Assembly: GCF_039525035.1 (NCBI RefSeq)
Contig: NZ_BAAAHE010000007.1
Location: 1-64,000, forward strand
Length of the DNA stretch: 64,000 bases
DNA from: Sporichthya brevicatena
GTDB lineage: Bacteria > Actinomycetota > Actinomycetes > Sporichthyales > Sporichthyaceae
Direction: 5' to 3'
Of this stretch, positions 1,878 to 30,283 are shown in pieces (position 1 is the stretch's first letter; each line of letters begins with the position of its first letter). The notes under the pieces are model-generated. The model did not search any database, was not told where the DNA came from, and worked only from the letters and a program-made list of their open reading frames with translations. The position numbers and the translations under genes are program-made.

Positions 1878-1996
1878 CCCATCCGGGCTGACGCGGCGTC
1901 ACGGACTCGTAAGGGTTCCCGGGCACCTCGCGGCTCGATACTGGCCGCGGAACCGCCGGCGCCCGGTGGTGCGCCGGCCCGCTGTGGAGGTGAGCC

Positions 1997-3419: not shown

Positions 3420-3830
3420 GTGAGCGCAGGTGTGCTTGTGGCGTACGCCAGCGGGACCGGGTGCGACAGCGCCTGCGCGACCGACATCGCGAACCAGATC
3501 GCGGACGTCCCCGACCTGGAGGTTGACGTCAAGCCGCTCAGCCGGGTCACGTCCATCGCGTCGTACGCGGCCACCTACATCGGGTGGGCCCGCCCCTCCA
3601 GTGCCGGCCGCGCCGAGCTGGAGCGTTTCCTCAACGCCAACGCCGAGCAGCTCCGGACGCGCCCGGTGTGGATCGTGCACCACCACCCCGACTGCCCCGA
3701 CGGCTCGCCGGACCGACACCTCAAGATGACGCGCCTGGTCTTCACCCCCGCGCCGGACGCGAAGCCGGCGCCCGCGGAGGAGCCGAGCTGGGCGGCGGCT
3801 CCGTCAAAGCGGACCCCCGCCGGCGTCTGA
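3420..3830 (+). CDS. Flavodoxin-like protein
   Basis: The 136-residue product opens with VLVAYASGTGCDSACATDIA, which resembles the FMN phosphate loop of flavodoxin-like proteins (strand, then a Ser/Thr/Gly loop, then a helix). It continues with alternating beta-strand and helix segments (YIGWARPSSAGRAELERFL, RPVWIVHHHP). GTG 3420 is preceded by GGGAGGAGG at good spacing. A TTGACT hexamer (3323-3328) and the dyad CTCAC/GTGAG (3338-3355) precede it and may form its promoter region. The Pro/Ala-rich tail (after about residue 105) overlaps the 3' end of the convergent mannosyltransferase gene by 89 bases. Its redox partner is unknown. Confidence 0.65.
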   Translation: MSAGVLVAYASGTGCDSACATDIANQIADVPDLEVDVKPLSRVTSIASYAATYIGWARPSSAGRAELERFLNANAEQLRTRPVWIVHHHPDCPDGSPDRHLKMTRLVFTPAPDAKPAPAEEPSWAAAPSKRTPAGV

Positions 3831-5175
3831 CGGCCTCGCCGACCGCAACGACCGCGGCCGCCGTCAGGTAGCACCACTGCTGCATGGCGGTGTTGTCCAC
3901 GCCCAGGTTGCCCGCCTGGTAGACGGGATACGCCGCGGCCGCCACCGCGAGCCACGCCGGCCGGTTCGCCAGGGCGGCCAGCGCGACGATCAGCAACCCG
4001 TACCAGGGCTGGCTCGGCCCGACGAGAACGAACGCGACGCCAGCCAGCAGAAGGGCGTCCGCCGCCGACGGGACCTCCCGGGCCCGACGCCACACCCACA
4101 CCGCCACCGCGACGCCGAGCGCGACCGCGACGGCCGGCGCCGCCGCGTCCGGCGTCAGCAGTCGGACCGTCCCGAACCGTTGCGCGCCGGAGTACCCTTC
4201 CTCCTCCAGATAGCCCGGCAGGTACCCGAGCACGTCCGTGCCCACGGCCGCCACGTGCGGGACGTACCCGACGAGGAACACCCCCGCGGCCGCGGCGAGC
4301 ACCCGATGCCCCCGCCGCACCAGCAGCGCCGGCACCAGCAGCACCGGCACGAGTTTCACCGCGACCGCCGCCCCGAACAGGGCCCCGCCCGCGACCAGGC
4401 GCCGCCCGGCCAGCAGCCCGAGCGCGCCGACCAGCAGCAGGACCCCGAGCACGTCGATGTGGGCGTTGTTCGCGCACTCCAGCCACACGACCGGGCACCA
4501 CGCCCACCACACCGCCGCGCGCGGGTCGCGCCCCGCCCGCTGCCGAGCCCAGGCCAGCGCGGCGGTCACCGCCACGGCGAGTGCGCCGAGCGCGACCTGC
4601 AACGCCCGCACCCGGTGCTCCTCGGGTGATGCGACGTGCAGCAGCAGGAAACTGCCCTCGGCCACCGGCGGGTAGATCGTGCGGACGTGCGGCCGGTTGA
4701 TCCACGTGCAGTCGTGCGGGACGCCGCGGGTGGTGCACGCATCGGTCCGACCGGACGCGACGGCGGCGGCCGCCTGCTCGGGTGTTCGCGGATCGGGTGG
4801 GAACAACTCGTCGTCGCGGAGGTGGGCGAGCGCCGGGTCGAGCGGGGTGTACCGGTACGGGTCGATCCCGGCCGCCTGGACCTTGCCGTCCCACAGGTAG
4901 CGCCAGAAGTCGTCGGTCGTCGTCGGTGAGTACCCGACCGCGACGACCTGCAGCAGCGCCCCGCCGGCCAGGGCCGCGCTCAGCGACGCGCGCAGCGGCA
5001 GCCCCCGCACCGCCCAGGCCCCGGCGACGAACAGGACGGCGGCCGAGGCGTACCAGGTGAGCATCCGCTCGACCGAGTCCGCGTTCGGGGCACCGACGCG
5101 TAGCGCGCCGACCTCCGCGACCACCGAGCCCACGAACGCGAGAACGGCCACGGCGGCGCGCTGACGAACCGTCAC
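3742..5175 (-). CDS. GT87-type polyprenol-phosphate-mannose-dependent mannosyltransferase (multipass membrane protein)
   Basis: The 477-residue integral membrane protein has about a dozen hydrophobic segments. An early extracytoplasmic loop carries TTTDDFWRYLWDGKVQAAGIDPY, typical of GT-C glycosyltransferases, whose acidic pair is catalytic. Further on are NNAHIDVLGVLLLVGALGL, VAVKLVPVLLVPALL and GPSQPWYGL, as in the DUF2029/GT87 family that adds mannose to lipoglycans. GTG 5175 overlaps the upstream stop (GTGA), so it is the last gene of the six-gene operon that begins with the GT2 gene. The natural acceptor is not deducible. Its C-terminus overlaps the convergent flavodoxin-like gene. Confidence 0.8.
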   Translation of the reverse strand: MTVRQRAAVAVLAFVGSVVAEVGALRVGAPNADSVERMLTWYASAAVLFVAGAWAVRGLPLRASLSAALAGGALLQVVAVGYSPTTTDDFWRYLWDGKVQAAGIDPYRYTPLDPALAHLRDDELFPPDPRTPEQAAAAVASGRTDACTTRGVPHDCTWINRPHVRTIYPPVAEGSFLLLHVASPEEHRVRALQVALGALAVAVTAALAWARQRAGRDPRAAVWWAWCPVVWLECANNAHIDVLGVLLLVGALGLLAGRRLVAGGALFGAAVAVKLVPVLLVPALLVRRGHRVLAAAAGVFLVGYVPHVAAVGTDVLGYLPGYLEEEGYSGAQRFGTVRLLTPDAAAPAVAVALGVAVAVWVWRRAREVPSAADALLLAGVAFVLVGPSQPWYGLLIVALAALANRPAWLAVAAAAYPVYQAGNLGVDNTAMQQWCYLTAAAVVAVGEAVRRRRGSALTEPPPSSAPPRAPASRPARG

Positions 5176-5627
5176 GTCGAGGCGGCCCGTCGAACGAACG
5201 CCACCCGCACGGCGTACCAGAGCGCCGAGATCGCGGCGAGGATCGCGGTGACCAGCAGCCACCGGCCGACGAACTCGTCGATCGGGCGGCCGGTCTTGTA
5301 CTCGTAGCTCTCGGCCTGACGGAGAATCAGCGGTGAGAACATCAGCAGCAGGATGCCGGAGACCGCGAGCGGGATGCGGACGAAGTTGAGCCACGCGACG
5401 CGTCCGGGCCGCCGGCGCCACAACGTCACGAGGGCGACGTCGAGCAGCACGTACACCGGCAGCAGCAGGCCGTCGTGGAGGACCGCGCCGGCGGCGAACC
5501 ACCCCGCGACGTCGAGCGTCCGTTCGTTCAGCAACTCGCGCAGCGCGAGCGCCGCCGGGACGAACGACAGCATGAGCACCAGCGCGTGGGCGGGGTGCTC
5601 GCCGTAGAACCTGCGCACGGCGGTCAC
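5172..5627 (-). CDS. Small multipass membrane protein of the molybdoenzyme operon
   Basis: The 151-residue protein has four predicted membrane spans (ALVLMLSFVPAALAL, WFAAGAVLHDGLLLPVYVLLDVAL, FVRIPLAVSGILLLMFSPLIL, WLLVTAILAAISALWYAVRV). A polar loop, RQAESYEYKTGRPIDEFVGR, lies between spans three and four. GTG 5627 overlaps the stop of the molybdopterin oxidoreductase gene, and its own stop overlaps the mannosyltransferase start, so translation is probably coupled on both sides. I do not recognise a named family. Position suggests a partner or quinol-side anchor of the molybdoenzyme, or an envelope helper of the glycosyltransferase; neither is proven. Confidence 0.75.
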   Translation of the reverse strand: MTAVRRFYGEHPAHALVLMLSFVPAALALRELLNERTLDVAGWFAAGAVLHDGLLLPVYVLLDVALVTLWRRRPGRVAWLNFVRIPLAVSGILLLMFSPLILRQAESYEYKTGRPIDEFVGRWLLVTAILAAISALWYAVRVAFVRRAAST

Positions 5628-6940
5628 GTCTCGAAGGTCAGGCGCTTGACCCACTTGGTGTTCCGCACGCCCGGGTTGTTGGGGACGATGATCCGCGCCG
5701 GGAAGCCGTGGTCCAGCGACAGGTCGGCGTCGTTCACCTGCAGCGCGAGCAGGCTGTCGCCGGCCGCGATCTGGTTGCCGGCCAGGCGTCCACGGCCGAA
5801 GGCTCCGCCGTCCTGCAGCGACTCGACGTGGACCGAGGCGGGGTCGGCCACTCCCGAGAGCGTGGCCAGGTCCCGGAGTCGGACCCCGCGCCAGCGCTGG
5901 TTGCCGCTGGACCAGCCTTCGACGCAGGCGATCGCGAGGGTCGCCTCGTGCTGCTCCATGGCGGCCAGGTCCGCGCGGCTGAGCACGATCGGGCTCGGGC
6001 CGCCGGCGATCTCCAGCCGCCACAGCCCGCCGACCAGGGCCGGCGTGATGCGGGCCTCGCCCGCGGTGGTGTTCACTCCGAAGTCGTTGGGTCCACCGCC
6101 GGGGTCGTAGCCGCCGCGGGGGGACAGGAGCCCGAGTCGGCTCACCGGACCGCCCACGGTCTGCGGTGCGACCATGACGAACGCTGTGAGGGAGCCGGCC
6201 CCGACGAGGCCGAGTGCTCCCCGGCGGGAGATGGTGGGCGCGGCCGGGCGGGCGCTGACCAGACCGTTCGGGGTGTACGGCTCGGGCGTCGTCCCCGCCA
6301 GCGGCGTCCGTAGTTCGTCGCGCACCCGGCGCTCGCGCAGCGCCGCGCGCATCGTCGGGATCTTCAGCGCGACGTGGGCGGCGGCGGAGACGACGAAGAC
6401 CCAGGCGGCGTAGAAGTGCAGGACGTAGAAGGACCCGGGGAAGCGGTACCAGTACTGGATGTTCAGCAGCCCCGTCGCGAAGGTGAGCATCGCGCCACCG
6501 ACGAGCAGGAACAACGACAGGCGCTCCAGCGCCTGCGCCGGTGACGCGACGGGCGGCCAGACGAACAGCTTCGGGATCACCGACCACAACTTGGCCAGGA
6601 TCACCGGCACCAGCACGACACCGAGCGTGACGTGCAGGCCCTGGGTCACGCGATAGCCCCACGCGGGCGAGGCCGGCCAGTGGAAGGGCACGAACGTCAG
6701 GACGCCGGAGGCGTGCCGTCCGTCGTTTCCGGGCAGCCAGGGGTTGTAGGCGAGGTAGGAGAGCAGCCCGGTCGCGAACATCACCGGGAGACCGACCAGC
6801 AGCACGGCGCCGAGGACCGAGGTCAGCCAGGGACCGCGGATCGGGCTGCGCCAGAACCCCGCCCGGAACGGGCCCGGCGGTGGACGGTCGGCGACCCAGG
6901 TGTTCGCAGCGGCCACGCGCGAACGCAGCGAGGTCACCAT
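5624..6940 (-). CDS. Membrane-anchored molybdopterin-dependent oxidoreductase (sulfite-oxidase family with cytochrome b-like N-terminus)
   Basis: The 438-residue protein is a two-part fusion. Residues about 40-200 form a cytochrome b561-like membrane region with four spans and histidines in FVPFHWPASPAWGYRVTQGLHV and FYVLHFYAAWVFVVSAAAHVAL. Residues about 290-438 form the SUOX-type Mo-cofactor domain with the cysteine ligand in LAIACVEGWSSGNQRWRG, followed by LDHGFPARIIVPNNPG and the final KWVKRL. A twin-Arg-like SRRGALGLVGAGSL segment joins the halves, so the domain probably faces outside. ATG 6940 and GTG 6937 are both possible starts; the GTG would give the GTGA overlap used throughout this operon. 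Electrons likely pass between the Mo centre and a heme or quinone. The substrate is unknown. Confidence 0.85.
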   Translation of the reverse strand: MVTSLRSRVAAANTWVADRPPPGPFRAGFWRSPIRGPWLTSVLGAVLLVGLPVMFATGLLSYLAYNPWLPGNDGRHASGVLTFVPFHWPASPAWGYRVTQGLHVTLGVVLVPVILAKLWSVIPKLFVWPPVASPAQALERLSLFLLVGGAMLTFATGLLNIQYWYRFPGSFYVLHFYAAWVFVVSAAAHVALKIPTMRAALRERRVRDELRTPLAGTTPEPYTPNGLVSARPAAPTISRRGALGLVGAGSLTAFVMVAPQTVGGPVSRLGLLSPRGGYDPGGGPNDFGVNTTAGEARITPALVGGLWRLEIAGGPSPIVLSRADLAAMEQHEATLAIACVEGWSSGNQRWRGVRLRDLATLSGVADPASVHVESLQDGGAFGRGRLAGNQIAAGDSLLALQVNDADLSLDHGFPARIIVPNNPGVRNTKWVKRLTFET

Positions 6941-7611
6941 CGCCGCAGCCCGACGAAGTGCCGGTGGTCGGAGGACCAGGTCTCGGTGAGGGTGAAGCCG
7001 AGGGGCTCGGCCAGGGCGGTCAGGGGGACCGCTCCGATCCGGATCCAGGGGAACGAACCGACCGCCTCGCCGTCGGGCCCGCGCACGATCGCGGTGAAGT
7101 GGACGTAGGCGGAACCGGACTCGACCTCGACGAGGACATGTCCGCCCGGAGCGAGCAGATCGCGGACGCGCGACAGCAGTCGGGGGGCATTGCCGCCGAT
7201 GCCGATGTTGCCGTCGACGAGCAACGCTGACGTCCAGCGGCCCTCACCAGGGAGTTCGTCGAACACGGAGCGACGTAGCGCGGACGCACCGTTGCGGCGG
7301 GCGATGCCGACCGCGGCCTCGGACACGTCGACCCCGAGCGCCGGCACGCCGCGGACGAGCAGTGCGCGGACCAACCGGCCGGGACCGCAGCCGATGTCGA
7401 GGGTGGGACCCGTGCAACGGGCCAGCACGGTCTCGTCGTCGGCGTCGGAGGACCGCAGCCACCGGCCGACGTCGAAGGACAGCGTCGCACCGGTCTCGTC
7501 GCTGATCCGCAGCGGCAGTCCGCGGCTCAGGGCGTCGTGGTAACGCGTGAGCACGGCAGGGCCCCAGGTCCGATCGTCCGCGACCGGCAGCGCCTCAACC
7601 GACACGGGCAC
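6934..7611 (-). CDS. Class I SAM-dependent methyltransferase
   Basis: A 225-residue methyltransferase with motif I LDIGCGPGRLVRAL near residue 72, the acidic strand end ALGVDVSEAAVGIARRNGA, and post-I LLVDGNIGIGGNAPRLLSRVRDLLAPGGHVLVEVE. It starts at GTG 7611, inside the last codons of the DUF2064 gene (17-base overlap), and ends inside the start of the molybdoenzyme gene. Such a methyltransferase between a DUF2064/GT2 pair and a molybdopterin oxidoreductase is, from memory, a recurrent arrangement in actinobacteria. The acceptor may be a glycolipid or a sugar made by the neighbouring transferases, but this is inference. Confidence 0.82.
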   Translation of the reverse strand: MPVSVEALPVADDRTWGPAVLTRYHDALSRGLPLRISDETGATLSFDVGRWLRSSDADDETVLARCTGPTLDIGCGPGRLVRALLVRGVPALGVDVSEAAVGIARRNGASALRRSVFDELPGEGRWTSALLVDGNIGIGGNAPRLLSRVRDLLAPGGHVLVEVESGSAYVHFTAIVRGPDGEAVGSFPWIRIGAVPLTALAEPLGFTLTETWSSDHRHFVGLRRW

Positions 7612-8245
7612 CTGCCGGCACGGTCAGGGCGGCGGACAGCGCGTCGTACGCGGTCGCGAACCGGCGACCGGCGCCCGTGGCCGCGCACTCCGCGGCGACC
7701 GCGCCGGCGTCGGCAGCGGTGTCCACGTCGCGAAGAACCGGCAGCAGGCCGACCCGCAGACCGGCCGACCGGAGCCGGGCCAGTTGCACCGCACCGGTGT
7801 CGTCCCGGGACATCGGGACGCCCAGCACGAGAGCGGGGTCGGGGCCGCGCAGGCCCAGGCCCCAGAAGCCGCCGTCGGCCGCCGGGCCGAACCAGGCGTC
7901 GTGGTTGGCGAAGTCCACCGTCAGGTGACGCATCGTCAGCTGCGGGGTGTCCATGCCGACGAGCAGTGTCGGCCCGGTCAGGTCGGCGAGGGCGTTCGCG
8001 ATCCGCTCGTCCAGACCCGCGCCGCGTTGCGGGCGGACCTCGATCCCGGCGGGCAGCCACGGACCCGGTTCGCCTTCGAGGGCGAGCACCCGCCGGGTCG
8101 CCGGCGCGGCGACGACCAGGTCGAGGGTGTCGCGGAGGGCAGCCTCGGCCAGCGCGGCGGCCTCGGCGGGGGTGAACGGGGGGCACAGTCGCGTCTTGAC
8201 CCGGCCCGGCACCGGCGACTTGGCCACCACGAGCAGGTTCGTCAC
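7595..8245 (-). CDS. TIGR04282/DUF2064-family glycosyltransferase-like protein
   Basis: The 216-residue protein begins MTNLLVVAKSPVPGRVKTRL, the signature of the DUF2064 nucleotidyl/glycosyltransferase-A fold, and has TLLVGMDTPQLT (the Asp motif) and WFGPAADGGFWGLGL. Members are named for arsenosugar biosynthesis, but most actinobacterial homologues have no known substrate. GTG 8245 overlaps the GT2 stop as GTGA, so the two are translationally coupled, and this pairing of GT2 with DUF2064 supports joint action in making an activated sugar or polyprenyl-linked sugar. The N-terminal KTRL lysine/arginine pair that contacts nucleotide phosphates is intact. Confidence 0.8.
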   Translation of the reverse strand: MTNLLVVAKSPVPGRVKTRLCPPFTPAEAAALAEAALRDTLDLVVAAPATRRVLALEGEPGPWLPAGIEVRPQRGAGLDERIANALADLTGPTLLVGMDTPQLTMRHLTVDFANHDAWFGPAADGGFWGLGLRGPDPALVLGVPMSRDDTGAVQLARLRSAGLRVGLLPVLRDVDTAADAGAVAAECAATGAGRRFATAYDALSAALTVPAGARVG

Positions 8246-8925
8246 GTCGCGAGCACCGCCCGCATGTCCCGGACGGTCCGCACCGTGCCGCGGAGGGTTC
8301 CGGTCACCTTGGACTTGCCGATGCGGGGCCGGTAGTCGATGTCGCGCTCCTCGATCCGCCAGTCGGCCCGGGCCGCCGTCAGCACCATCTCCAGGGGGTA
8401 GCCGAAGCGGCGGTCACGCAGGTCGAGGTCGACCAGTTCCGTCCGCCGTGCCGCCCGCATCGGCCCCAGGTCGTGCAGGCGGACGCCCGAGTGGCGGGTC
8501 ATCAGAACTGCCAGGGCGCGGTTGGCGAGCCGCGCGTGCACCGGCCATGATCCGCGCGCGGGCCGGCGTCGACCCAGCACGAGATCGGCCGTCCCGGCGA
8601 GGACCGGGGCGGTCACGCGCTCGAGCTGGCCGGGATCCATGGAGGCGTCGCAGTCGCAGAAGCACACCACGTCGGCGGTGGCCGCGAGCAGACCCGCGTG
8701 GGCCGCGGCACCGAAGCCGCGGCGGGGTTCGGAGACGACGAGGGCCCCGAGCGCCGCCGCCACCGCGGCGGAGTCGTCGGTGGAGCCGTTGTCGACCACG
8801 ATCGCGCGCGCCCAGGGCGGCATGCGCTCGAGGACCCACGGCAGCGCCGCCGCCTCGTCCAGACAGGGCAGAACCACGTCGACGACCGGAAGCACCGAGT
8901 CCGACGGAAGGTGGGCCGAGGTCAC
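8242..8925 (-). CDS. Family 2 glycosyltransferase
   Basis: A GT-A fold transferase with VDVVLPCLDEAAALPWVL, IVVDNGSTDDSA, the metal-binding CDCDASMDP (DXD-type) and DLGPMRAARR. I place the start at GTG 8925 (227 residues). TACGGT at 8937-8932 lies six bases before it, exactly as the -10 box lies before the leaderless response regulator gene. The alternative ATG 8997 would put a predicted regulator site inside the coding region and has no convincing ribosome site. It is the first gene of a six-gene operon (GT2, DUF2064, methyltransferase, molybdoenzyme, membrane protein, GT87). The likely product is a polyprenyl-linked or lipid-linked sugar. Confidence 0.82.
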   Translation of the reverse strand: MTSAHLPSDSVLPVVDVVLPCLDEAAALPWVLERMPPWARAIVVDNGSTDDSAAVAAALGALVVSEPRRGFGAAAHAGLLAATADVVCFCDCDASMDPGQLERVTAPVLAGTADLVLGRRRPARGSWPVHARLANRALAVLMTRHSGVRLHDLGPMRAARRTELVDLDLRDRRFGYPLEMVLTAARADWRIEERDIDYRPRIGKSKVTGTLRGTVRTVRDMRAVLAT

Positions 8926-8931
8926 GGTGAA

Positions 8932-8937
8932 ACCGTA
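8932..8937 (-). promoter_or_regulatory. Candidate -10 box of the GT2 operon (leaderless start)
   Basis: On the minus strand TACGGT is followed by six bases and then GTG 8925, which would put the transcription start at or next to the start codon. No good -35 is visible, which fits an activated promoter; a regulator-like site lies about 47-62 bases upstream of the start. Confidence 0.45.
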
Positions 8938-8971: not shown

Positions 8972-8987
8972 TTACGGAGTTCTGACG
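8972..8987. promoter_or_regulatory. Candidate response-regulator binding site, copy A
   Basis: TTACGGAGTTCTGACG here differs at one base from 9888-9903, upstream of the response regulator gene. It lies upstream of the GT2 operon start preferred here, on the opposite orientation relative to transcription. Confidence 0.55.
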
Positions 8988-9020
8988 TCGGATGCATGAG
9001 TAAGTCCTGCCCACAAGAGA

Positions 9021-9056
9021 GGACGGGAACGACCGGCAGTGCGGTCGTTCCCGTCC
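9021..9056 (-). terminator. Rho-independent-like terminator of the lipoprotein gene
   Basis: A perfect 14-bp stem (GGACGGGAACGACC with GGTCGTTCCCGTCC) and an 8-base loop lie 48 bases beyond the lipoprotein stop. On the minus strand the stem is followed by TCTCTTGTG, a short T-rich stretch. It also separates the lipoprotein from the GT2 operon. Confidence 0.75.
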
Positions 9057-9104
9057 GGATCGCTCAGGAAGAGCCGGTCGGCCGCCGGTGGCGGCCCCGG
9101 CGGA

Positions 9105-9776
9105 TCAGGCCAGCTTGAGCGTGATGCGCGCGATGCCGACCTTGAAGAACTCGGTCAGGGCGTCGGTCTTGTAGGTGGCGTTGAGCAGGTCCGCAGCGGC
9201 GGCGGTCAGGCTGACCGTCGTCCCGTAGAGGACCGCCTGGTTCTTGGCCTCGTTGACCTGCAGCGGCTCCAGGGTGCGACCGTCCAGGAAGAACAGCGGC
9301 GCGCCCTTCACGACCGACTTGCCGTTCGCGGACACGTCGCCGGTGAGCATCGAGGTGCCGGCGTCGACGAGGAAGTTGGTGAGCTCCACCTTCGTCTTGC
9401 CGTCGGTGAGGCTGATGCCGCTGCCGTCGTGGGCGATCGCGCTCTCGACGTACGGGGTGCGGGAGCCGGGCGTGTAGTACGTCGCCGAGCCGCCGGTGAT
9501 CGGGAAGGACAGCGTGCCGTCCTTGAGCTTGGCCGTGCCGACCACGCCGGGGGTGAGCTTGAGCGAGGTCAGGCCCTCGAGGAAGCCGGGGTCGACGACG
9601 ACCTCGGTCATCTTGCCGGTGAGGTTGGTCAGAGCGGCCACCGGCTCGCCGGCGGTCGCTGCGGTCGCCGCGGTGGGTTCGGCCTTGTCGTCCTCACCGC
9701 ACGCGGCGAGACCGAGGACCAGGGTGCCGGCGATGGCGAGTGCTGTCGCGGAGCGGGTGAGAACGTGGGTGCGCAT
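9105..9776 (-). CDS. Secreted lipoprotein of unknown function
   Basis: The 223-residue product has a lipoprotein signal peptide: MRTHVLTRSATALAIAGTLV followed by LGLAAC, with the lipidated Cys at about residue 26, then an acidic/Ala-Thr spacer. The mature part is rich in beta-strand and turn residues (LTNLTGKMTEVVVDPGFLEG, GSATYYTPGSRTPYVES, HDGSGISLTDGKTKVELTNF, APLFFLDGRTLEPLQ, AVLYGTTVSLTAAAADLLN). No catalytic motif is visible. It is transcribed away from the two-component genes across a 176-base gap that contains one of the two predicted regulator sites, so it may belong to the same regulon as an envelope component. ATG 9776 follows a GAGAGGAAATC ribosome site. Confidence 0.75.
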   Translation of the reverse strand: MRTHVLTRSATALAIAGTLVLGLAACGEDDKAEPTAATAATAGEPVAALTNLTGKMTEVVVDPGFLEGLTSLKLTPGVVGTAKLKDGTLSFPITGGSATYYTPGSRTPYVESAIAHDGSGISLTDGKTKVELTNFLVDAGTSMLTGDVSANGKSVVKGAPLFFLDGRTLEPLQVNEAKNQAVLYGTTVSLTAAAADLLNATYKTDALTEFFKVGIARITLKLA

Positions 9777-9887
9777 GATTTCCTCTCGGGGGCGTTGTCC
9801 GTATGGCCTCCATTCGCAGGTCGCGCCCGGCGGGCTTGGTGAAAGTGGGTGCCGGTTCTGAGTCCTGGCTCACAGGCGGAACGGGGC

Positions 9888-9903
9888 TTACAGAGTTCTG
9901 ACG
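9888..9903. promoter_or_regulatory. Candidate response-regulator binding site, copy B
   Basis: TTACAGAGTTCTGACG, one mismatch to copy A at 8972-8987, lies 50-65 bases upstream of the leaderless response regulator GTG. A further half-match, GGTTCTGAGTCC, is at 9854-9865. This fits autoregulation by an OmpR-type dimer. Confidence 0.55.
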
Positions 9904-9940: not shown

Positions 9941-9946
9941 TAGACT
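9941..9946 (+). promoter_or_regulatory. -10 box of the response regulator gene (leaderless)
   Basis: TAGACT ends six bases before GTG 9953. No ribosome site precedes the GTG, so the transcript is probably leaderless. No strong -35 element is seen at the usual distance. Confidence 0.55.
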
Positions 9947-9952
9947 CCGCGT

Positions 9953-10675
9953 GTGGGCAGTCGCGTGCTGGTCGTCGAGGACGACGTGACGGTGGCGGAA
10001 GTGGTCGTCACCTACCTCAAGAACGCCGGTTACGAGGTCGAGCACGCCCCCGACGGACAGGCCGCACTGGACGCCGCTGCACGTGCGTGGCCCGATCTCG
10101 TCGTCCTCGACCTGATGCTGCCCGGCATCGACGGCCTCGAGGTCTGCCGGCGGCTCCGGACGACCGGCGCGGTTCCGGTGATCATGCTGACGGCGCTGGG
10201 TTCGGAGAACGACCGCGTGGTCGGTCTGGAGGTCGGCGCCGACGACTACGTGACGAAGCCCTTCAGCCCGCGCGAGTTGACGCTGCGTGTGCAGTCGGTG
10301 CTGCGCCGCGTCGCCGGCCCCCCGCCGGTTCATCCGGACGCGCCGGCCGTGCTGACGGCGGGGCCGATCCGGATGGACGTGACCGCGCACCGCGTCACGC
10401 TGCACGGCGAACCGCTCGCCCTGACGACCCGTGAGTTCGACCTGCTGGCGCACCTGCTCGCCCACCCGGGCCAGGCGTTCACCCGCGAGGAACTCATGAA
10501 GACCGTGTGGGGGTGGGAGTTCGGCGACCAGTCGACCGTCACCGTCCACGTCCGGCGGCTGCGGGAGAAGATCGAGCCCGACCCGGCGAACCCGACGCTG
10601 CTCGTCACGGTGTGGGGCGTCGGCTACCGGTTGGACCCGCCGGTGCCGGCACCGTCGGAGGGCGCACCGGCGTGA
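9953..10675 (+). CDS. OmpR/PhoB-family response regulator
   Basis: The 240-residue regulator has a receiver domain (about 1-118) with the acidic pocket EDD 9-11, phospho-acceptor Asp53 in VVLDLMLPG, the switch Thr in VIMLTAL and the conserved Lys in VTKPFSPREL. A winged-helix DNA-binding domain follows (about 140-228: VTLHGEPLALTTREFDLLAHL, EELMKTVWGWEF, VHVRRLREKIEPD, VWGVGYRLD). GTG 9953 has a -10 box six bases upstream and no ribosome site. Its stop overlaps the histidine kinase start (GTGA). The 16-base repeat upstream of it and of the GT2 operon suggests it regulates itself and that operon. The signal is unknown. Confidence 0.95.
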   Translation: MGSRVLVVEDDVTVAEVVVTYLKNAGYEVEHAPDGQAALDAAARAWPDLVVLDLMLPGIDGLEVCRRLRTTGAVPVIMLTALGSENDRVVGLEVGADDYVTKPFSPRELTLRVQSVLRRVAGPPPVHPDAPAVLTAGPIRMDVTAHRVTLHGEPLALTTREFDLLAHLLAHPGQAFTREELMKTVWGWEFGDQSTVTVHVRRLREKIEPDPANPTLLVTVWGVGYRLDPPVPAPSEGAPA

Positions 10676-11802
10676 GTGACCGCGTCGAGATCGTCCTGAT
10701 CGCGCTCGGGTGGTCGGGTGCGGTGGCGATCGCGGGCGCGGGACTGCTCCGTGCGCTCCGGGGCCGATCGGTCCGTGCGTCCCTGCTCGCCCTCTGTCTG
10801 ACGACGGTCGCCGCCGTGATCGCCGCGACCATCGGCACCGCTCACGCCATGTTCCTCTCCGACCACGACTTCGAGGTCCTGCTGCTCGTCAGCGTCGTCG
10901 TCGCGGTGCTCATGGCCGGCGTCTCGGGTCTGCTCGCGCACAACCTCGCCGAGAGCAGCCGGGCTCTGACCGAGCAGACCCGCGCCATCGGCGACATCGC
11001 CACCCTCGACCTGTCCGCCGAGACGCCGCACCGCGCCCCCGCCAGCGCCGAGCTCGCCGCGCTCAGTCGGGAGCTCGACGCCGCCCGTACCCGGCTCGCC
11101 GAGTCCCGGGCCCGCGAGCAGGCGCTCGAGACCGCGCGACGCGAGCTGGTCGCGTGGGTCTCGCACGACCTGCGTTCGCCGCTGGCCGGGATCCGGGCGA
11201 TGGCCGAGGCGCTCGAGGACGGCGTCGCCGAGGATCCGGACCGCTACCGCAAGCAGATCCGCATGGACGTCGACCGCCTCGCCGGCCTGGTCGACGACCT
11301 CTTCGAGCTCTCCGTGATCCAGGCCGGCGCGCTCAAGCTCTCGCTGGAGAAGATCTCGCTCTCCGATCTCGTCAGCGACACCCTGGCGGGCGCCGACGCC
11401 CTGGCCCGGGAGCGCGGCATCGCCCTGCGCGGCCACGCCCTGACCGACGTCGCCGTCCGCGCCGACAGCCGCGAGCTGTCGCGGCTGATGAGCAACCTCG
11501 TCGTCAACGCGATCCGGCACACCCCGGCCGATGGCGCCGTCGAGATCAGTCTCGTCGAGCGCGACGGCCGCGCGACGATCGCGGTCACGGACGGGTGCGG
11601 CGGCATCCCGGAGGAGGACCTGCCGCGCGTCTTCGACGTCGCGTGGCGGGGCAACAACGCCCGAACCCCCGGGGCGGACGGCGGTGCCGGCCTCGGCCTC
11701 GCGATCGTGCGCGGCATCGTCGAGGCTCACGCCGGCGAGATCACCGTTGCGAACACCGGCAGCGGCTGTCGGTTCGAGGTCTCGCTGCCCGCGCTCGCCT
11801 GA
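10672..11802 (+). CDS. Membrane sensor histidine kinase
   Basis: The 376-residue kinase has two membrane spans near residues 5-25 and 35-95, including the long hydrophobic VLLLVSVVVAVLMAGVSGLL, with little extracytoplasmic sequence. A linker/HAMP-like coiled region leads to the dimerisation box WVSHDLRSPLAGIRAMAEAL, where His is the phosphorylation site. The ATPase domain shows N box LMSNLVVNAIRHTP, G1 VTDGCGGIPEEDL, F box and G2 GADGGAGLGLAIVRGIVEAH. GTG 10672 overlaps the response regulator stop. Lack of a sizeable sensory loop points to sensing within the membrane or through a partner, possibly the neighbouring lipoprotein; that last idea is conjecture. Confidence 0.94.
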   Translation: MSDRVEIVLIALGWSGAVAIAGAGLLRALRGRSVRASLLALCLTTVAAVIAATIGTAHAMFLSDHDFEVLLLVSVVVAVLMAGVSGLLAHNLAESSRALTEQTRAIGDIATLDLSAETPHRAPASAELAALSRELDAARTRLAESRAREQALETARRELVAWVSHDLRSPLAGIRAMAEALEDGVAEDPDRYRKQIRMDVDRLAGLVDDLFELSVIQAGALKLSLEKISLSDLVSDTLAGADALARERGIALRGHALTDVAVRADSRELSRLMSNLVVNAIRHTPADGAVEISLVERDGRATIAVTDGCGGIPEEDLPRVFDVAWRGNNARTPGADGGAGLGLAIVRGIVEAHAGEITVANTGSGCRFEVSLPALA

Positions 11803-11811
11803 GCCTGAGCC

Positions 11812-12870
11812 TCAGACCCGCATCGCCGCCGCGGCGAACTCGGCCATGCCGGCGTCGAAGTCCTCGCGGGGCGACCAGTCGAGCTCGGTGCGCAGGCGGA
11901 GCGAGGAGGCGGTGATGTGCCGGACGTCGCCGAGGCGGAAGCCGCCGGTGACGATCGGCTCGGGACCGCCGCACGCTCGGGACAGGGCGAGCGCGAGTTC
12001 GCCGACGGTCCGGACCGTCCCGCTCCCGACGTTGTAGGCACGGAGCGCTCCGGCCTCGACCGGCCCCGGGCCGGACACGGCGTCGAGCACGGCGAGGTTG
12101 GCGGCCGCGACGTCGCGGACGTGGACGAAGTCGCGCCGCTGCGCGCCGTCCTCGAACACCTTGGGTGGCTGGCCGGCGGCGAGGCTGGACCGGAACAGGC
12201 TGGCCACGCCGGCGTACGGGGTGTTGCGCGGCATCCGGGGCCCGTAGACGTTGTGGTACCGCAGTGCGGCGACGCGCGCCCCCGTCGCGCGGGCGAACGC
12301 GGCCGCGAGGTGTTCCTGTGCGAGCTTGGTCGCGGCGTAGACGTTGCGCGGGTCGGGTGCCGCGGTCTCGTCGACCAGTCCGGACTCCAGGTCGGCGCCG
12401 CAGCGCGGGCACGGGGGCTCGAACCGCCCGTCGCGCAGCGCGCTCGGCGTCCGCGGGCCCGGGGCGACGACGCCGTCGTTCGGGCACTCGTAGCGGCCCT
12501 CGCCGTAGACGACCATCGAGCTCGCGAGCACCAGGCGCCGGATCCCCATCCGCGCCATGCCGGCGAGCAGGACCGCGGTTCCCCAGTCGTTGCTCGCGAC
12601 GTAGTCGGGGGCGTCGTCGAAGTCGACACCGAGTCCGACCATCGCCGCCTGGTGGCAGACGGCCTCGATGTTGTCGAGTGCCTGCTCGACCGCCTCGGCA
12701 TCGCGGACGTCCCCGGCGAGCACCTCGGCCTCGACGGGCAGCGTCGGCGACGTGGAGTGGACCGCCGGCAGCAGCGCGTCGAGCACGCGCACCTCGTGCC
12801 CGGCGGCCAGCAACGCCTCGACGACGTGGGACCCGATGAACCCGGCCCCGCCGGTGACCAATACGCGCAT
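11812..12870 (-). CDS. NAD-dependent epimerase/dehydratase (nucleotide-sugar extended SDR)
   Basis: A 352-residue extended SDR with the Rossmann motif VTGGAGFIGSHVVEALLAAG at the N-terminus, ASSMVVYGEG, the catalytic YAATK near residue 174 and substrate-binding RYHNVYGPRMPR and DFVHVRDVA. An insertion before the catalytic Tyr carries four cysteine-type residues in YECPNDG and PPCPRCGADL, a zinc-ribbon-like patch that, from memory, also occurs in some actinobacterial and Burkholderia sugar epimerases such as dTDP-rhamnose 4-epimerase. ATG 12870 is preferred because it begins exactly at MRVLVTGG; GTG 12888 is also open. It converges on the histidine kinase with a nine-base gap. It probably supplies an activated sugar for the glycosyltransferase operon. 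Confidence 0.87.
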   Translation of the reverse strand: MRVLVTGGAGFIGSHVVEALLAAGHEVRVLDALLPAVHSTSPTLPVEAEVLAGDVRDAEAVEQALDNIEAVCHQAAMVGLGVDFDDAPDYVASNDWGTAVLLAGMARMGIRRLVLASSMVVYGEGRYECPNDGVVAPGPRTPSALRDGRFEPPCPRCGADLESGLVDETAAPDPRNVYAATKLAQEHLAAAFARATGARVAALRYHNVYGPRMPRNTPYAGVASLFRSSLAAGQPPKVFEDGAQRRDFVHVRDVAAANLAVLDAVSGPGPVEAGALRAYNVGSGTVRTVGELALALSRACGGPEPIVTGGFRLGDVRHITASSLRLRTELDWSPREDFDAGMAEFAAAAMRV

Positions 12871-12887
12871 GCGCGTCACGTTACCCA

Positions 12888-12912: not shown

Positions 12913-13039
12913 ATCGCGACTGGAAACGGGCCGTCAGAACCTGGTAATGGGCCGCCTCCTTGTGGTCGACCGTCTCCCCGGAGGAGAGTCGTCCCGCTCG
13001 TGCACCGCCAGACGAACCACACCGGATCGGAGGCCGGAG

Positions 13040-30081: not shown

Positions 30082-30116
30082 CCCCTGCACAAGAGATGTC
30101 ATCTCCAGTGCAGGGG
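30082..30116. repeat. GAGATGTCATCTC palindrome, copy 1
   Basis: CCCCTGCAC-AA-GAGATG-T-CATCTC-CA-GTGCAGGGG is a near-perfect dyad nine bases after the SDR stop. Three copies lie in this 215-base convergent gap. Likely a terminator; also possibly a repeat-family element. Confidence 0.75.
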
Positions 30117-30120
30117 TGGG

Positions 30121-30148
30121 TGCACAAGAGATGTCATCTCCAGTGCAG
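30121..30148. repeat. GAGATGTCATCTC palindrome, copy 2
   Basis: A direct copy of the first element with a shorter left arm (TGCAC), four bases after it. The core GAGATGTCATCTC and the right flank CAGTGCAGGG are identical. Confidence 0.75.
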
Positions 30149-30159
30149 GGCGTCGGGGC

Positions 30160-30235
30160 CGGGTGCCCGATTGCGCCGAGTGCGCAGATCAGCACCGGTC
30201 GCGGCGCGGGCACCCGTGCTCAACTGCGCACTCGG
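30160..30235. repeat. Interleaved inverted repeats
   Basis: Arms occur in the order A-B-A'-B'. A is CGGGTGCCCG (30160-30169) and A' CGGGCACCCG (30207-30216). B is CCGAGTGCGCAGATCAGCAC (30176-30195) and B' its reverse complement with three mismatches (30216-30235). The two stems cannot be nested and would form a pseudoknot-like or alternative fold. It is framed by copies 2 and 3 of the palindrome. Confidence 0.6.
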
Positions 30236-30249
30236 TGCAGATCGGCTCA

Positions 30250-30283
30250 CCCTGCACTAGAGATGTCATCTCCAGTGCAGGGG
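30250..30283. repeat. GAGATGTCATCTC palindrome, copy 3
   Basis: CCCTGCAC-TA-GAGATG-T-CATCTC-CA-GTGCAGGG lies five bases past the stop of the minus-strand amidohydrolase. It can terminate that gene just as copy 1 terminates the SDR. Confidence 0.75.

Follow-up and report, generated by a model that had tools for sequence, protein, structure and literature searches.

A conserved candidate operator at a two-component system and a glycosyltransferase operon in Sporichthya brevicatena

The locus and its repeated 16-mer

The 64,000-nucleotide stretch of Sporichthya brevicatena DNA analysed here (contig NZ_BAAAHE010000007.1, positions 1 to 64,000; termed the window) carries a two-component system (TCS) and a neighbouring glycosyltransferase operon, both preceded by copies of a 16 bp motif. 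The TCS consists of a response regulator (RR; 9953..10675, plus strand) and a sensor histidine kinase (HK; longest open reading frame 10507..11802, plus strand; PF00512 and PF02518), whose true start is probably nearer 10670. The RR has a receiver domain (PF00072, 5.8e-32) and a C-terminal winged helix (PF00486, 5.4e-28), and thus belongs to the OmpR/PhoB family. The operon is on the minus strand and begins with a GT2 family glycosyltransferase gene (8242..8925; PF00535), for which a leaderless start at GTG 8923-8925 is predicted by conservation, the reading frame being open to ATG 8997. A lipoprotein-like gene (9105..9776, minus strand), whose product has no Pfam or NCBIfam match, lies between the GT2 and RR genes.

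The two copies of the motif, TTACGGAGTTCTGACG at 8972-8987 and TTACAGAGTTCTGACG at 9888-9903 (both plus strand), are identical at 15 of 16 positions, as a first-pass annotation of this DNA had noted. Copy 1 spans positions -62 to -47 in the promoter of the GT2 operon, and copy 2 spans -65 to -50 in that of the RR. Copy 1 is inverted with respect to GT2, and relative to their own genes the copies point in opposite directions. The distances that the annotation gave, 47 to 65 bases, are also correct: the first T of the motif is 47 bases from GTG 8925 of GT2 and 65 bases from GTG 9953 of the RR. Likewise, a -10 box is found exactly six nucleotides before each GTG, TACGGT (8932..8937, minus strand) for GT2 and TAGACT (9941..9946, plus strand) for the RR. 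No -35 element better than shuffled sequence is present at the GT2 or the RR promoter. Sequence identity between the copies does not extend past the 16-mer, which suggests that this is the extent of the functional core.

The annotation had further held that a 15/16 match within 1 kb at two such positions would be improbable by chance. The GC-rich window, however, has 34 distinct direct pairs within 1 kb that match at 15 of 16 positions or better, and the argument from chance is therefore too weak to bear the proposal. The significance of the motif comes from its conservation and not from the pair itself.

Conservation, spacing and genome-wide occurrence

The relatives compared were two members of the genus (G001 and G002), two of the family (G003 and G004), and some 20 loci of Streptomyces and other families. 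In all four of the named genomes and in most of the Streptomyces and other-family loci, the GT2 and RR genes are divergent immediate neighbours. A site resembling TTACG-N6-KGACG is found in every one of the 25 GT2/RR intergenic regions read. Variants are TTACGGAGTTCTGACG in G001, an exact copy of operator copy 1, TTACGTAGTTCTGACG in G002, TTACGGTCCGCGAACG in G004, two sites of sequence TTACGGTCCGC in G003, and TTACGAAACACGGACG as the typical Streptomyces form. Two sites per intergenic region are also seen in several other families. Half-sites TTACR and KGACG, 11 bp apart, are recognizable both in the Sporichthyaceae, the organism's own family, and in Streptomyces.

The association of the motif with both promoters, which the annotation had proposed from a single locus, extends to the relatives. 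The site accompanies the RR in 33 of 37 orthologous loci, and each of the 24 relatives with a callable start has it at the GT2 promoter. Some of the RR loci have no adjoining GT2 gene, and the site thus tracks the RR.

Starts were called where a -10-like box is found 6-7 nt upstream of an in-frame ATG or GTG, and distances were taken to the first T of the site. A TANNNT-like box at 6-7 nt before RTG, the mark of a leaderless gene, is present at GT2 and the RR in nearly all relatives. The GT2 box is identical in G001 and G004, reads TACGTT in G003 and TAGGGT or TACGGT in Streptomyces; the counterpart of the RR box in G001, G002 and G004 is CCCTAGACTC or CCCTAAACTC. Thus the leaderless GTG starts suggested in the annotation are predicted starts, and both are conserved.

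Distances from site to start are not continuous. For the RR they are 64-68 bases (21 loci), 76-79 (eight loci) or 55 (two loci), and for GT2, with the site in reverse orientation, 46-49 (12 relatives) or 37-38 (12 relatives). For a GalE-like epimerase gene downstream of the TCS they are 56, 66-67 or 77-78. The S. brevicatena values are 65 for the RR, 47 for GT2 and 77 for the epimerase. Site-to-start distances therefore step by whole helical turns. Spacing this regular favours the operator as well as the leaderless starts, and speaks against ATG 8997 as the start of GT2.

Close matches to the 16-mer are also rare. The annotation had proposed a genome search, with many random matches counting against the idea, but at one mismatch or fewer the 16-mer occurs only three times in 5.2 Mb, and two of these are the sites at 8972 and 9888. 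The three genus genomes each contain one match to a pattern of site, RR-type spacing, -10 box and start, in every case at the RR, and one to the corresponding GT2-type pattern, in every case at GT2; controls gave none for either pattern. The GT2-type pattern also has one match in G004, away from GT2, and this is taken as chance. When 127,966 positions were ranked with a weight matrix built from other families, the sites at 8972 and 9888 came second and fifth. Two more sites of the window, at 1897-1912 and 12932-12947, took ranks 1 and 6, respectively. The skeleton TTACNNNNNNNKGACG has 12 genome matches, four of them within 11 kb around the TCS (P about 2e-8). A one-mismatch site at C26:74005 was considered and set aside: it is just downstream of a TAGAAT box, inside a AGAAACCCC/GGGGTTCT-like repeat, lacks the promoter geometry, and is probably a chance match.

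Proposed operator function and alternatives

The 16-mer is very probably the operator of the adjacent OmpR/PhoB-family RR, which would activate leaderless promoters that have no -35 element. The reading given in the annotation, in which the regulator activates itself and the GT2-to-GT87 operon, is largely supported. The operator would consist of the half-sites TTACR and KGACG as a direct repeat, 11 bp apart. Phosphorylated RR would bind upstream of the leaderless, -35-less promoters on a fixed face of the helix and contact polymerase from upstream of the -35 region. In this way the RR would activate its own RR-HK operon and the five-gene operon that runs from GT2 through the DUF2064, methyltransferase and molybdoenzyme genes to GT87. 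It would probably also activate the epimerase gene and a second methyltransferase gene, at 1997. The tandem half-sites, their upstream position and the missing -35 elements point to an activator that contacts polymerase.

Several observations weigh against this interpretation. The two half-sites make up an imperfect 11 bp direct repeat, the second of them decaying to GGAA in some families. Genome-wide, the skeleton TTACNNNNNNNKGACG and its reversed control are equally frequent (12 matches each), so chance accounts for most of the skeleton's matches away from the TCS locus. In G002 and G004 a search before the epimerase gene gave no forward site. The methyltransferase site at 1897-1912 would serve a leadered promoter, and the gene itself looks frameshifted in the assembly. 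Leaderless status is a prediction, as starts were called from the position of a -10-like box.

A minor possibility is that the operator is as proposed but that the RR represses, or both activates and represses. Autoregulated RRs often repress, and the paired sites in the intergenic regions of G003 and several families are compatible with looping or dual control. However, positions of -47 to -79 place the sites upstream of the RNA polymerase core region, and no -35 element better than shuffled sequence is found at the promoters; both properties fit activation. Spacing to the start by helical turns is in addition typical of polymerase contact.

Binding of the motif by a different regulator, with its gene outside this locus, is unlikely. 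The site follows the RR where GT2 is not adjacent, sites cluster genome-wide at the TCS, and tandem half-sites are typical of OmpR/PhoB regulators. Similarly improbable is a start of GT2 at ATG 8997, which would make copy 1 coding sequence and not promoter. The open reading frame would then overlap copy 1, and a possible AGGA is found about 8 nt upstream of this ATG. Against this, a predicted leaderless GTG or ATG is equally far from the site in all 24 relatives with a callable start, the GT2 domain begins only at residue 42, and the context of GTG 8925 is conserved. There is also scant room for a promoter, with 23 bp between ATG 8997 and a terminator-like hairpin at 9021..9056 (minus strand). 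The hairpin has 15 bp perfect arms (-32.7 kcal/mol, z -4.6), is 3' of the lipoprotein gene and upstream of the GT2 promoter, and probably insulates GT2 from the lipoprotein transcript.

Chance, or a target-site duplication flanking an inserted 900 bp segment, with no regulatory role in either case, is rejected: the lipoprotein gene is indeed missing from this position in every relative read and the identity of the copies is confined to the 16-mer, but G001 and G002 carry the motif at the same distances without the insert, so that the motif predates it, G003 has two sites and no insert, and no transposase is found between the copies.

The proposed operator of the adjacent RR appears to have been retained on both sides of a divided promoter region. 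In the ancestral layout the RR and GT2 genes probably shared a single divergent promoter region that held one or two sites. Among the genomes read, S. brevicatena alone has the lipoprotein gene between GT2 and the RR, and each of the promoters that flank the gene has kept a site of its own at the usual distance. A split divergent promoter with an operator copy on each side constitutes a natural experiment. In G002 the lipoprotein gene is downstream of HK. Distant homologues adjoin the RR in two other loci, and the gene thus shifts position around the TCS between genomes. Membership of the lipoprotein gene in the regulon was considered, with site 9888 at 112 bp upstream of its ATG; it is not claimed, because none was seen ahead of the gene in either G002 or G004.

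The wider gene set and related systems

Behind GT2 the operon (all minus strand) continues with a gene for a DUF2064/TIGR04282-like protein (7595..8245), which adjoins GT2 in most relatives, and a methyltransferase gene (6934..7611). These are followed by a membrane molybdopterin oxidoreductase of sulfite oxidase fold (5624..6940; PF00174) and a GT87 glycosyltransferase (3742..5502; PF09594). The oxidoreductase matches SorA, SorT and SoxC weakly, below cut-off, and for its membrane region Pfam gives a cytochrome b561-like match that stays below cut-off.

The regulon is probably larger than the GT2 operon and the RR. The GalE-like NAD-dependent epimerase gene (11812..12870, minus strand; PF01370) is convergent with HK, and Streptomyces has the same gene order. 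A third candidate operator, TTACCAGGTTCTGACG (12932..12947, minus strand), is at -77 of this predicted leaderless gene, which has a -10 box, TAACGT (12878..12883, minus strand), 7 nt before ATG 12870. In G001 the third operator forms a conserved island amid diverged flanks, and in two Streptomyces loci and G003 the epimerase gene has its own site at 66-67 bp. The fourth candidate operator, TTACGAGTCCGTGACG (1897..1912, minus strand), is 25 bp from a -10-like GATACT (1937-1942, plus strand) of the methyltransferase gene at GTG 1997. Both sites are identical in G001. This methyltransferase gene is one G short in a G run (about 2125-2145) compared with G001 and its frame is shifted, either through a genuine mutation or through an error of the assembly. 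A site at C44:91821-91836, TTACGAACCGCGGACG, precedes the ATG of an alpha/beta-hydrolase gene by 65 bp. The hydrolase gene is divergent from a TetR-like gene, and the 16-mer is also present in G001; the hydrolase gene is a possible remote regulon member.

A separate observation concerns a palindromic element, CTGCACAAGAGATGTCATCTCCAGTGCAG, present in three copies at 30083-30275 of the window; in the third copy a single A is replaced by T. With one mismatch or fewer, the core of the element is found 92 times in the S. brevicatena genome, 25 times in G001 and not at all in G002 or in controls. The element is an expanded palindromic repeat family.

In the Escherichia coli HprSR (YedVW) system, a TCS adjoins and controls msrPQ, which encodes a molybdoenzyme of sulfite oxidase fold. 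The HprR model matches the RR below its cut-off. Unlike in HprSR, the S. brevicatena enzyme is coupled to a membrane region and encoded within a glycosyltransferase operon, and the operator differs. The solved structures closest to the RR by sequence are RegX3 (2oqr) and MtrA. No phosphate genes were seen among its neighbours, which, in contrast to those of SenX3-RegX3, are GT2, epimerase and molybdoenzyme genes. The RR scores 242.5 bits with the NCBIfam MtrA equivalog (cut-off 300) and 225.4 bits with that of PhoB (cut-off 296.2), and does not reach the cut-off of any of the named NCBIfam families that match it best. MtrA of Streptomyces coelicolor and Mycobacterium tuberculosis, also an OmpR/PhoB-family RR, recognizes a roughly six-nucleotide direct repeat, tandem and imperfect, that lies within an 18 nt consensus (PMC5650626). 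The site described here, for which a tandem direct repeat is likewise proposed, reads TTACR...KGACG, and the gene set is different and local. The -10 boxes at 6-7 nt before ATG or GTG resemble those of leaderless mycobacterial genes, the starts here being predicted ones. A review of S. coelicolor TCSs includes several unnamed OmpR-type RR-HK pairs, none of which could be matched to the present system. No description of the motif or regulon was found in the open-access literature searched, where absence is no proof of novelty.

A close RR is present in 144 of 395 genomes sampled from the class, or over a third. It appears reasonably likely that a widespread, as yet unnamed actinobacterial TCS runs a compact glycan-assembly regulon of GT2, GT87, GalE-like epimerase and membrane molybdoenzyme genes, with one operator that shifts only by whole helical turns relative to leaderless starts and is retained at both promoters after a split of the divergent region. 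A membrane enzyme of sulfite oxidase fold would thereby be linked to glycan assembly. For this TCS the analysis names a concrete candidate operator, defines a set of targets and predicts the geometry of the promoters, and it makes the regulon directly testable.
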